Position numbers and translations under genes: made by a program. From Chlorobiota bacterium (GTDB lineage Bacteria; Bacteroidota; Bacteroidia; Bacteroidales; F082), in the NCBI GenBank assembly GCA_030596395.1, contig JAUVKF010000001.1:62001-126000 (forward strand): DNA of 64,000 nt, read 5' to 3'. Within the stretch, counting starts at the first letter, position 1. The number at the start of each line of letters is the position of its first letter. Below, piece by piece: positions 4,115 to 57,763 of this stretch. The notes under the pieces are model-generated. The model saw only the letters and a list, made by a program, of their open reading frames with translations. It was not told where the DNA came from and searched no databases.

Positions 4115-4248
4115 TAACGGTTTCGTAAATAGTTTGTGGCGGTTTTTGAAACACAATTTTTTCAACTTACACTAAAGTTTACTATCAGTTAATTGCTTGA
4201 TATATAGCTCTTCATCCGCCAAAAACTATATACAATGTTGGGCGTTCA
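4115..4248 (-). repeat. attC-like imperfect palindrome, copy A
   Basis: The left arm GTAAATAGTTTGTGGCGG (4125-4142) pairs with 4216-4233 at 16 of 18 positions, and outer AACG/CGTT ends (4116-4119 and 4243-4246) also pair, enclosing a 73-base loop. An unequal bulge (GTTTC-like side against the CCCAACATT side) sits between the outer and inner stems. The loop contains TTTTCAACTTACA (4159-4171), identical to 55919-55931 in copy B. The right end, GTTGGGCGT (4237-4245), is repeated in inverted orientation at 5024-5032. Confidence 0.8.
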
Positions 4249-4252
4249 ATTT

Positions 4253-4420
4253 TTATTCGGCAATTTCCTTATTAACTTTTCTTTTCTTGTTAGTTCTCGT
4301 TCTTGGAGTTTTGGCTTTCATTTTTTTTATGTGTTCACTAATTTCTTTTCGTTCCTGCTCAGTTAAGGGAGGGCTCTGAATTAAGAAATCAACTCCTTCC
4401 GGTTCTTTAATATGTGCCAT
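4253..4420 (-). CDS. Small basic protein in cassette A
   Basis: 55 residues beginning MAHIKEPEGVDFLI, with a helical middle (TEQERKEISEHIKKMK) and a very basic tail (TPRTRTNKKRKVNKE). The start at 4420 lies 4 bases after the stop of the upstream gene (4425); an alternative ATG at 4447 would overlap that gene. Family unknown to me. The pairing of a GNAT-like protein with a small charged partner recalls toxin-antitoxin pairs, but nothing in the sequence shows toxicity and the gene order is opposite to the common antitoxin-first order. Confidence 0.6.
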   Translation of the reverse strand: MAHIKEPEGVDFLIQSPPLTEQERKEISEHIKKMKAKTPRTRTNKKRKVNKEIAE

Positions 4421-4424
4421 TTTA

Positions 4425-4952
4425 TTATGTCTTAAAATATTTTTCAACTAATCTTTTTGCTGCTTTTGAATCAATTATCATTCTTTGATTCTTAAAATGA
4501 AATGCTCCTAAAGTCTTTTCATAGTGTTCTACAAGTTTTGTTTTTGCCGTAAAAGCTATAAATCCATCAAACCCTTTTTGAAACGAAACTTTACATGCAT
4601 AAGCAACCAGGTTGCCTGCTACTCCTTCATAAAGTTTATTCTTTCCTATATTAAATGGAGCACTTTCCAATAAATCTATGAAAACGTAGTCATTTTCAAT
4701 TGTGATACTTAGTAATCCTTGAATGATAGTTGGATTATTTACAATCGTTAATTTGTATTGTTCTTTTTTTTCATTTAATAATTCCGATCTCCAATCAAAA
4801 TTCCATCCTTTTCTCTTGGTAATATTCTTTAAGTCGCTTTTTGTTAAAATGGATATTTCAGTAGGAAAACTGTCACCGGATATTGTATTTAGAATGGAGT
4901 TTGTTAACCTATCAATTATAAAATCCTGTTCAATTATTTTATTACTGTCCAT
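4425..4952 (-). CDS. GNAT-like N-acetyltransferase in cassette A
   Basis: 175 residues. The second half has the pattern of a GNAT fold: a strand pair (IQGLLSITIENDYVFIDLLE), a GVAGNLVAYACKVSFQKGF helix segment where the acyl-CoA pyrophosphate loop would be, then HYEKTLGAFHFKNQRMII, the usual late helix and strand. It is AT-rich relative to neighbouring genes and lies inside the attC-like cassette. The acceptor substrate is unknown. Only a weak promoter match lies upstream (TATTTTTTG near 4966, one base longer than consensus). Confidence 0.6.
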   Translation of the reverse strand: MDSNKIIEQDFIIDRLTNSILNTISGDSFPTEISILTKSDLKNITKRKGWNFDWRSELLNEKKEQYKLTIVNNPTIIQGLLSITIENDYVFIDLLESAPFNIGKNKLYEGVAGNLVAYACKVSFQKGFDGFIAFTAKTKLVEHYEKTLGAFHFKNQRMIIDSKAAKRLVEKYFKT

Positions 4953-5145
4953 AAGTTCTAAAGGTACAAAAAATACGTAAGTTTCAGCTCATTTATTCTG
5001 TTAATTTTATGTTTCTTAAACTGACGCCCAACTTCCAGATAATCATACCCACCAATCAATATCACCTCTATCTAACCCTGTCATTTTTCCTATGGACTTT
5101 AAACTCTGCTTCAAGCCCTCTGCTCCATGCCCTTTGCCCTCTACC

Positions 5146-6617: not shown

Positions 6618-8363
6618 ATGGAGGATTTTATTGTATCAGCACGAAAATACAGGCCCGCCACTTTTCAACAAGTTGTTGGCCAGCAATCTATTACCTCCAC
6701 CCTTCAAAATGCAATCAAGAACAACCAGGTTGCCCAGGCCTTTTTATTTACCGGTCCGCGTGGTGTTGGGAAAACAACCTGTGCACGCATCCTTGCAAAA
6801 ACGATAAACTGTTCAAACCTTAACAAAGACCTTGAACCCTGTAATGAGTGTGAGTCGTGTACTTCTTTCAACAACAGTGCTTCTTTCAATATCCACGAAC
6901 TGGATGCAGCATCAAACAATTCGGTTGAAGATATCCGCACATTGGTTGACCAGGTGCGAATTCCGCCGCAGGTTGGATCGTACAAAGTATATATCATCGA
7001 TGAGGTTCATATGTTGTCGCAGGCTGCATTCAACGCCTTTTTAAAAACGTTGGAAGAGCCTCCGGCCTATGCAAAATTTATCCTGGCAACTACTGAAAAG
7101 CACAAAATTCTGCCAACCATTTTATCACGTTGCCAGATATTTGATTTCAGACGGATCAGCGTTGAAGATATTTCGCAGTATTTGGCATATGTGGCTAAAA
7201 ATGAAAATGTTAACGCCGAAGAAGAGGCATTGCATATCATCGCGCAAAAATCGGATGGAGCCTTACGTGATGCCTTGTCAACTTTCGACCAGATAGTTAG
7301 TTACAGCGGAGATAAACTTTCCTATAAAAATGTTATCGAGAACCTGAATATCCTTGATTACGAATATTATTTTAGGGTAACCCATTCTATAATAATAGGG
7401 GATATCTCTCAACTGCTACTGATTTTCAACGAGATTATTGAAAATGGTTTTGACGGGCAGCATTTCATTACCGGACTGAATGAACATTTCCGGAACTTAC
7501 TGGTCATTAAGGATCCGGTTACCATTGAATTAATGCTTGCCAGCCCTTCGTTAAAAGAAAAATACAGAACTCAGGCGGATTCGTGCCCTGTGGAGATGTT
7601 GCTCAAAGCCCTCACTACCTGCAATAAATATGATCTCAGTTACAAAACCAGCAACAATAAGCGCTTACATGTTGAAATTGCATTAATGCAATTAGGGCAG
7701 TTGAATGCAGAACCAAAAACACAGTTAACGCAAACATCCCGGCAAACAAAACCTGAGCCTGTTGCCAAAGAGCAACCGATTTCCTATAAAGCTGAAAAAA
7801 AGACAGAAGAGAAAAAACCTGAGGAGCAGGAATTAAAAACCGAACCCAAAAAGCAAGCGGCTCCGGTAAGAAAATCAGTTAGTAAGCCTCCGGCTGAAGA
7901 CAATGGACGTAAGATCAGGAACATTTCGATTAAAGACAGTCTGGATGCTTTAAAACGGAAAAAGGAACCTGAAGACCAAGCTGATGAACCAGTGATTAAA
8001 ACTAAATTCAACCAGGAGAAACTGATCGAAATATGGAAAAGTTTTGTTGAATCTTACAAAACAAAATCGCCAAGTTTTTCAAATGCTATCGCTAAATATG
8101 AGCCTGTTCTAAAAGAGGATTTTATAATTGAATACAAAGTTGATAATATACTCATCGCAAAAGATGTTCTGAATGTAACTTCCTTACTTGAATTCCTGAA
8201 AAGGGAATTGAACAACAACCAGATCACGCTTAAACCTGTATTGCCCGATAAAAAAGAAGCAAAAGTAGCCTACACCGACCGGGAAAAGTTCGAGGAAATG
8301 GCGAAGAAGTATCCGGGAATTATCAAATTGAAAGAGCAGCTTAATCTGGAGTTGGAGTTTTAG
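6618..8363 (+). CDS. dnaX: DNA polymerase III subunit gamma/tau
   Basis: 581 residues. This is the ATPase of the clamp loader. Walker A GPRGVGKTT is at residues 46-54, the four zinc ligands are Cys65, Cys75, Cys78 and Cys81, Walker B/DEVH lies near residue 130, and sensor ATTEKHKILPTILSRCQ near 155-171. After the AAA+ and collar domains comes a Lys/Glu/Pro-rich linker (about residues 365-450) and a C-terminal tau-like domain. No obvious slippery frameshift site was noticed, so only the full-length form can be supported. Confidence 0.96.
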   Translation: MEDFIVSARKYRPATFQQVVGQQSITSTLQNAIKNNQVAQAFLFTGPRGVGKTTCARILAKTINCSNLNKDLEPCNECESCTSFNNSASFNIHELDAASNNSVEDIRTLVDQVRIPPQVGSYKVYIIDEVHMLSQAAFNAFLKTLEEPPAYAKFILATTEKHKILPTILSRCQIFDFRRISVEDISQYLAYVAKNENVNAEEEALHIIAQKSDGALRDALSTFDQIVSYSGDKLSYKNVIENLNILDYEYYFRVTHSIIIGDISQLLLIFNEIIENGFDGQHFITGLNEHFRNLLVIKDPVTIELMLASPSLKEKYRTQADSCPVEMLLKALTTCNKYDLSYKTSNNKRLHVEIALMQLGQLNAEPKTQLTQTSRQTKPEPVAKEQPISYKAEKKTEEKKPEEQELKTEPKKQAAPVRKSVSKPPAEDNGRKIRNISIKDSLDALKRKKEPEDQADEPVIKTKFNQEKLIEIWKSFVESYKTKSPSFSNAIAKYEPVLKEDFIIEYKVDNILIAKDVLNVTSLLEFLKRELNNNQITLKPVLPDKKEAKVAYTDREKFEEMAKKYPGIIKLKEQLNLELEF

Positions 8364-55837: not shown

Positions 55838-55873
55838 GGGTTTTGGTTTTTCTATTATTAAATTTAAGAGCTA

Positions 55874-56008
55874 TAACGGTTTGCAAATATGAGCAGGCGG
55901 GCGTTTTTAAACACATCCTTTTCAACTTACAATGAATTTTATTTTATAGTTTAATTTTCATATTACAAATTTCTGCTCGCTTGATTATACTTGCTGTTGT
56001 GTGCCGTT
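55874..56008 (-). repeat. attC-like imperfect palindrome, copy B
   Basis: The left arm GCAAATATGAGCAGGCGGGC (55883-55902) faces 55975-55994 with 15 of 20 Watson-Crick pairs plus three G-T pairs, around a 72-base loop. Outer AACGG/CCGTT ends also pair. It shares TAACGGTTT, AAACACA, TTTTCAACTTACA and overall spacing with copy A at 4115-4248. The right end GTTGTGTGCC (55996-56005) recurs inverted at 56413-56422. Confidence 0.8.
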
Positions 56009-56421
56009 TTTATTCAATCTTTTCAATTTTCTTTATTTGATAATAATCTCTCTTAAGGTTTGGATTTGTATAACTAAAATTGGAGCAGGTGTCTTCAATC
56101 TCACCAAGTTCAATATATACTTTAACCGGATTAGTAATTTCATATCCGATAGTTTCTCCGATTATTATATTATCAGATTTAATTGTGTCATTTCCCATTT
56201 TAATAGTCCAACCCCAGCAACACCTGCATTTCTCAGCATTGAAGTTAATAATTTCAGCGTTACTTTTTCGTGAATTAGTGTCTTTGTCACAAGATGCGAA
56301 TAGAACAATAATCAACACGTTTAGCATAATTAGTATTCTCATTTTAATAGTTTTTAATGTTACCTAAAACTGCAAATTGTCAAATTCTTATTGTCAATAG
56401 GTTGTTTATAATGGCACACAA
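55877..56421 (-). mobile_element. Integron-cassette-like insertion B (one gene)
   Basis: A 545-bp segment on the minus strand. It starts TTGTGTGCC (after a G at 56422), carries one small gene and ends in the attC-like palindrome. Its 5' bases complement the GGCACACAAC that begins its own terminal site, as in cassette A but with a different sequence. Removing it joins TAG to TTATAGC between the glucosaminidase and SBBP genes. No integrase in the window. Confidence 0.6.
56010..56342 (-). CDS. Small lipoprotein of cassette B
   Basis: 110 residues. The lipobox VLFASC is at about residues 13-18. A CRCCWGW motif near residue 40 (three cysteines) and a fourth Cys in IEDTCSNFSYTN suggest disulfides or metal binding. 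I do not recognise the family. The stop codon is 2 bases from the end of the attC-like palindrome, as is common for integron cassettes. No consensus promoter is seen upstream. Confidence 0.6.
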   Translation of the reverse strand: MRILIMLNVLIIVLFASCDKDTNSRKSNAEIINFNAEKCRCCWGWTIKMGNDTIKSDNIIIGETIGYEITNPVKVYIELGEIEDTCSNFSYTNPNLKRDYYQIKKIEKIE

Positions 56422-56494
56422 CTAACCGATAAAGATAATGAATAATACAGGAGTTGTCAACCGGAATTGACATTGGGAAGTTGAAGACGGTGTT

Positions 56495-57587: not shown

Positions 57588-57763
57588 CCGTTTAACTCCG
57601 AGTCCCGATAGCTATCGGGACGCGGGAGTCTCCTGAGTTGGAACAAGAACTTTACATGGGGATTGCCGCGCTCCATTTCATTGCGCTCGCCTGCCTGCCT
57701 GTCCGCCGTTACACTTTAGCAGGCGGGCGCGAAGCCGCTCCGGCAAAGGCAGGCAATTAAACG
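57588..57763. repeat. Composite intergenic repeat (unit X3 and interrupted unit Y2)
   Basis: X3 (57588-57636) contains a perfect 20-base palindrome GTCCCGATAGCTATCGGGAC (57602-57621) and matches the X units at 8451 and 8595 in inverted orientation. Y2 (57659-57690 plus 57753-57763) matches unit Y at 8508-8548 but is split by a ~62-base insert (57691-57752) that begins CTGCCTGCCTG and ends GGCAAAGGCAG. No gene lies in 57494-57848. Confidence 0.7.

Follow-up and report, generated by a model that had tools for sequence, protein, structure and literature searches.

Within the 64-kb stretch of DNA analysed here (the window), two resident genes, which encode a glucosaminidase-LysM protein and a T9SS-sorted SBBP protein, are separated by a segment with the layout of a gene cassette, cassette B (Table 1). 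Read 5' to 3' on the minus strand, with slashes marking the crossovers, the segment begins at ...TATCTTTATCGGTTAG/TTGTGTGCC, where a G precedes the crossover, and continues through a single gene for a 110-aa lipoprotein (stop codon TAA, then AAAC) and the R'' box GGCACACAAC, which opens an attC-like site of about 129 nt, to AAACCG/TTATAGC. Placing the crossover after G56422 fixes the span exactly.

Table 1. Features of the cassette B locus, and cassette A, in the window.
Feature	Position	Strand	Description
Cassette B	55877..56421	minus	545 bp; TTGTGTGCC...CCG; crossover G/TT at either end
R' box GTTGTGTGCC, 5' junction	56413..56422	minus	G56422 belongs to the flank, the cassette starting with TT
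R'' box GGCACACAAC	55996..56005	minus	4 nt beyond the cassette gene's stop codon
Cassette B gene, putative lipoprotein P0001, 110 aa	56010..56342	minus	no Pfam family
attC-like site of B	55877..56005	minus	R'' GGCACACAAC, L'' arm, VTS with TGTAAGTTGAAAA..TGTGTTT, L' arm, CCG
Downstream resident gene, T9SS-sorted SBBP protein, 555 aa	54170..55837	minus	PF18962, PF06739
Upstream resident gene, glucosaminidase-LysM protein, 332 aa	56495..57493	minus	PF01832, PF01476
Resident SBBP-gene promoter, upstream of cassette B	56423..56470	minus	TTGA-N19-TATCTTTA
Cassette A, second lone cassette, same attC family	4118..5031	minus	914 bp; internal motif shared with B

A sequence-only reading of this DNA had proposed that the ends of cassette B form a perfect 10-base complement, and both GTTGTGTGCC (minus 56422-56413) and GGCACACAAC (minus 56005-55996) are indeed present and complement each other perfectly; also present is a near-match to a -7 box that it had noticed, CATATTTG, within the attC. 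Its placement of the gene 2 bases from the palindrome needs correction, the stop codon lying 4 nt before GGCACACAAC. The R box, GTTGTGT, has one mismatch to GTTRRRY, a degenerate consensus that is no absolute requirement. The lipoprotein gave an uninformative single-sequence AF2 model (pLDDT 42). Its distant homologues (27-33% identity) include some without detectable attCs, an occurrence that the sequence-only reading had named as telling against itself; because cassette genes have non-cassette relatives, the integron reading stands. Elsewhere in the window, at 57598-57625, a palindromic CCCGATAGCTATCGGGA repeat beside a GC-rich stretch has the look of a dispersed repeat and is unrelated to cassette B.

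The 3' element of cassette B belongs to a large family of structured sites. An internal motif has exact matches in the window's genome only in cassettes A and B, and since most of its one-mismatch matches there look like chance, covariance models were built. Of 393 genomes of the order, 14 contain a pattern derived from the motif, at a total of 17 places (reversed control, 0; viral contigs, 0 exact matches), nearly all of these within elements of about 130 nt bounded by ...AAC and CCG/TT. Covariance model R1 has matches in 183 of the 393 genomes, and R2, retrained on 82 sites, in 159 of 395 sampled genomes across Bacteroidota, about 40%. Both models match the attC of B, at 55870-56001 (R1, 101.9 bits, E 2.5e-17; R2, 96.6 bits). 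The attC arms covary, with 380 two-sided compensatory cells against 123 after shuffling, and 91% of cells are paired, a share that drops to 35-46% once the 3' partners are slid; alignments built with a covariance model lean towards the structure of that model. Across the family, 105 of 106 R' boxes fit GTTR, and only 14 of 106 fit the strict GTTRRRY. At the joint of circularised cassette B the bottom strand folds better (z -3.6) than the top (z -1.4), as expected for an attC; cassette A shows no difference between strands. Family attCs also occur in MAGs labelled as other phyla, on a 100-kb contig of Candidatus Neomarinimicrobiota (L119) and on a Patescibacteria-labelled contig (L115), which may reflect either transfer or misbinning.

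The matched ends follow a rule that holds throughout this family. In arrays, R'' pairs with the junction after the preceding attC at 5.43 of 6 variable bases (61 consecutive cassettes), against 2.46 for the cassette's own 3' end and 2.24 for shuffled partners, and end sequences differ from one cassette to another; both the claim of such differences and the integron-cassette reading built on a separate R''/R' pair for each cassette are borne out. Among mostly scattered cassettes of the window's genome and its congeners, the upstream TT+6 match is present in 17 of 31, compared with 29 of 930 for a foreign R''. This matched-end rule is the logic of integron cassettes. Taken alone, the matched 10-mer of B would be weak evidence, because the AT-rich 64-kb window holds more than 100 comparable chance pairs (TT-anchored 10-mer inverted pairs, 9 bases fixed, at most 3 kb apart); its weight comes from the 3' element, a member of a covarying family in which matched ends are the rule.

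Cassette B lies alone at a chromosomal target that is neither attI nor attC, and so fits an attG-type insertion. The glucosaminidase-SBBP pair recurs in a congener, the sister species G003 (69% and 86.5% identity), where the intergenic region is about 100 bp long and holds no cassette. The empty site that had been predicted in relatives was thus found (G003:C94), although the exact string TAG-TTATAGC was not seen in this diverged locus. The window carries TTGA-N19-TATCTTTA upstream of the cassette, which we take to be a Bacteroidota-type promoter, and the empty congener has TTGA-N19-TATCTTTG with the same spacing. The -7 box is conserved in G003, and in the window cassette B begins 8 nt beyond it; the SBBP promoter was therefore kept and not replaced, contrary to the suggestion that the insertion had replaced the region upstream of the SBBP gene.

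Cassette A gives a second case: it is absent from five of five congeners, in which its neighbours lie 17-249 bp apart and the loci contain no R2 match. Its genes encode a 175-aa protein, acetyltransferase-like by eye, and a lysine-rich small protein of about 55 aa, neither with a Pfam match, in a two-gene layout reminiscent of a toxin-antitoxin pair. The window's genome has 13 attCs, mostly alone and on separate contigs, and lone insertions at secondary G/TT sites there are well supported. Congener G004 has 36 attCs, in an array and as singles. Near-identical attI sequences (TTTGTCGTAATATATCATAG/TT) occur in it at three places (L061/L136, L187/L222, L191/L219), two of which carry copies of the recombinase 3' end; these are duplicated integron platforms. 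No intact integrase of the family type is present among the four Phage_integrase matches in the window's genome, a 94% complete MAG, and arrays tend to break assemblies. The sole IntI-like sequence found there (C62, L135 ~6970-7170, minus) is a truncated C-terminus similar to that of canonical IntI. It adjoins a carbonic-anhydrase-like ORF and is left over from an integron integrase that was lost or broken.

Elsewhere in Bacteroidota the attC family is found in arrays beside recombinases. At 12 of the 14 same-orientation loci that extend more than 1.3 kb downstream, attCs detected by covariance model follow the recombinase; at one further locus of the 14, the first cassette, 8.5 kb long, ends in an attC-like site with matched ends. 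The arrangement at G074 is the classical divergent one. An attI-like core, ...ATATANRNAG/TT, lies about 10-130 nt past the recombinase stop codon, followed by the first cassette. Genomes G032 and G019 are 98.8% identical over 2,377 bp to the left of the crossover, where they share recombinase and attI, and 29.5% identical to its right, the pattern that insertion or exchange at attI would leave. In the complete genome G006, 45 full-length attCs lie in one orientation, all downstream of the recombinase; a cassette of about 396 bp in this array (L154, L164, L165; R' GTTAGC/GTTGGC) recurs at about 10 places and is a repeatedly copied small cassette. Many other recombinase genes face outward at contig ends, consistent with assembly breakage in repeats. 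Plasmids of cultured strains also carry such sites, by covariance model in Persicobacter psychrovividus pPP2 (more than 30 attCs in 24 kb) and Chryseobacterium sp. SNU WT5, and by matched ends, with shorter attCs, in Rufibacter tibetensis and Pontibacter kalidii. IS110-family transposases occur within the plasmid cassette arrays (L233, L234, L236); relatives of IS110 target attC sites. The wider family has both an attI-like site beside the integrase and a cassette array, in the manner of a complete integron.

The linked recombinases differ from canonical IntI in one conspicuous respect: the additional domain, of about 30 aa, is missing, with 4 residues in place of the 32 of canonical IntI in every one of the 16 array-type recombinases that were aligned (compare also the 2a3v alignment). 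This domain has been described as essential (PMC8138268), and the title of Messier and Roy 2001, as listed in PMC2426708, calls it necessary for activity. Among 61 relatives, one has a canonical IntI above the TIGR02249 cut-off; below the cut-off, relatives lack profile positions ~180-238 almost everywhere. The array-linked recombinases score 190-221 bits on TIGR02249 (cut-off 265) and around the cut-off on NF040815, and several (L044, L061, L134 and others) have N-terminal extensions with repeated W-rich motifs (ARWS...WY/W-P) and no strong Pfam match. The same order also contains a nearly full-length canonical IntI that has the additional domain (G066:C50, L036:1459-2367, minus); its C-terminus diverges after GYDIRTIQE, probably through a frameshift. 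Judged by its sequences, the system works like an integron whose integrase is not a canonical IntI, and the domain-less, integron-like tyrosine recombinase beside the attI-like NAG/TT would most likely be the integrase of this attC family.

An alternative that accepts the cassettes as real is that a canonical IntI placed them, with the domain-less recombinases beside the arrays being bystanders or a parallel system. The truncated canonical-looking C-terminus in the window's genome and the near-full IntI of G066 speak for it. We nevertheless consider it unlikely, though worth keeping in view, as canonical IntI is rare, in 1 of 61 relatives above cut-off against attCs in 183 of 393 genomes of the order; the domain-less recombinases lie directly before attI and the arrays at nearly all of the loci counted above; and the same recombinase and attI are followed by different first cassettes in G032 and G019. 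An IS91-type element using a similar tyrosine recombinase is very improbable: a plasmid relative of the recombinase in Sphingomonas sp. JE1 overlaps an IS91 transposase annotation, whereas the surroundings of the Bacteroidota plasmid recombinases examined carry no such annotation, and the boundary rule and attI/attC arrays are found instead. We reject it on these grounds.

The inverted 10-bp ends of B could also be read as the terminal repeats of a transposon or MITE, which we hold to be extremely improbable. The ends differ among cassettes, a long covarying element lies at the 3' end with none at the 5' end, the G/TT junctions show no apparent target duplication, and the head-to-tail cassette junctions in arrays contradict it. 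That an inverted repeat merely surrounds an ordinary gene by chance, as the abundance of comparable 10-mer pairs in the window might suggest, has next to no probability, being contradicted by the covariance-model match and by the congener with an empty site.

We conclude that cassette B is very probably a genuine integron-type gene cassette that was inserted alone by a reaction between attC and a secondary site. It would have arrived as a circular cassette with its attC folded into a single-stranded hairpin, and an integron integrase would have recombined this attC with the non-attI chromosomal target G/TTATAGC, an attC x attG-like reaction. With the cassette 8 nt past the -7 box, the resident promoter probably drives transcription of the lipoprotein gene, and the SBBP gene may thereby have become the second gene of that promoter's transcript.

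The system resembles the sedentary chromosomal integrons typified by the VCR arrays of Vibrio in its small genes with attC-like sites of about 130 nt, in giving each cassette its own R''/R' pair, and in its G/TT crossover, and likewise has large co-oriented arrays and an attI adjoining the integrase. It differs from Vibrio-type integrons in R boxes that fit GTTR and only rarely the full GTTRRRY, in an internal motif that one subset of the attCs conserves strongly, in an integrase without the additional domain and with a W-rich N-terminal extension, and in the order, at most loci, of integrase then array in the same orientation. The linked recombinases come close to the integron-like (IntI) tyrosine recombinase subgroup (PMC8138268; TIGR02249, NF040815), scoring around the NF040815 cut-off and below that of TIGR02249, and lack the additional-domain insertion. 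Single cassettes at chromosomal sites that are neither attC nor attI, termed attG, are attributed to Loot et al. 2024 (doi 10.1038/s41564-023-01548-y) in two citing papers (PMC12901181, PMC11023631); as those papers describe them, and leaving consensus sequences aside, they share with cassette B a lone position off attI and attC, whereas the cases here are natural Bacteroidota insertions compared with empty sites. The Bacteroidetes integrons reported in a survey with IntegronFinder 2.0 were few: In0 elements and a single complete integron, that of Salinibacter ruber M1 (PMC9024848). The latter is likewise a Bacteroidetes integron; here the attC family reaches about 40% of sampled genomes.

Lone insertions at attG sites are already known, and the novelty lies at the level of the system, the Bacteroidota arrays with domain-less integrases. 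Our literature search found no description of such arrays; preprints and most subscription papers fell outside its coverage, and an earlier description is possible. The large Bacteroidota cassette population with its neighbouring domain-less integrases is apparently undescribed.

We suggest that these loci probably represent a widespread, unrecognised class of Bacteroidota integrons, with integrases that lack the additional domain and structured attCs of about 130 nt, which seeds lone cassettes into the chromosome, here at a resident promoter that would allow the captured gene to be expressed at once. For a lone cassette directly behind a resident promoter, cassette B offers a clean example from nature. 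Should the linked recombinases prove active, integrons would not universally require the additional domain, their evolutionary origin from Xer-like enzymes could be tested, and environmental Bacteroidota would be seen to hold a large reservoir of cassettes, some of it on plasmids of cultured strains.
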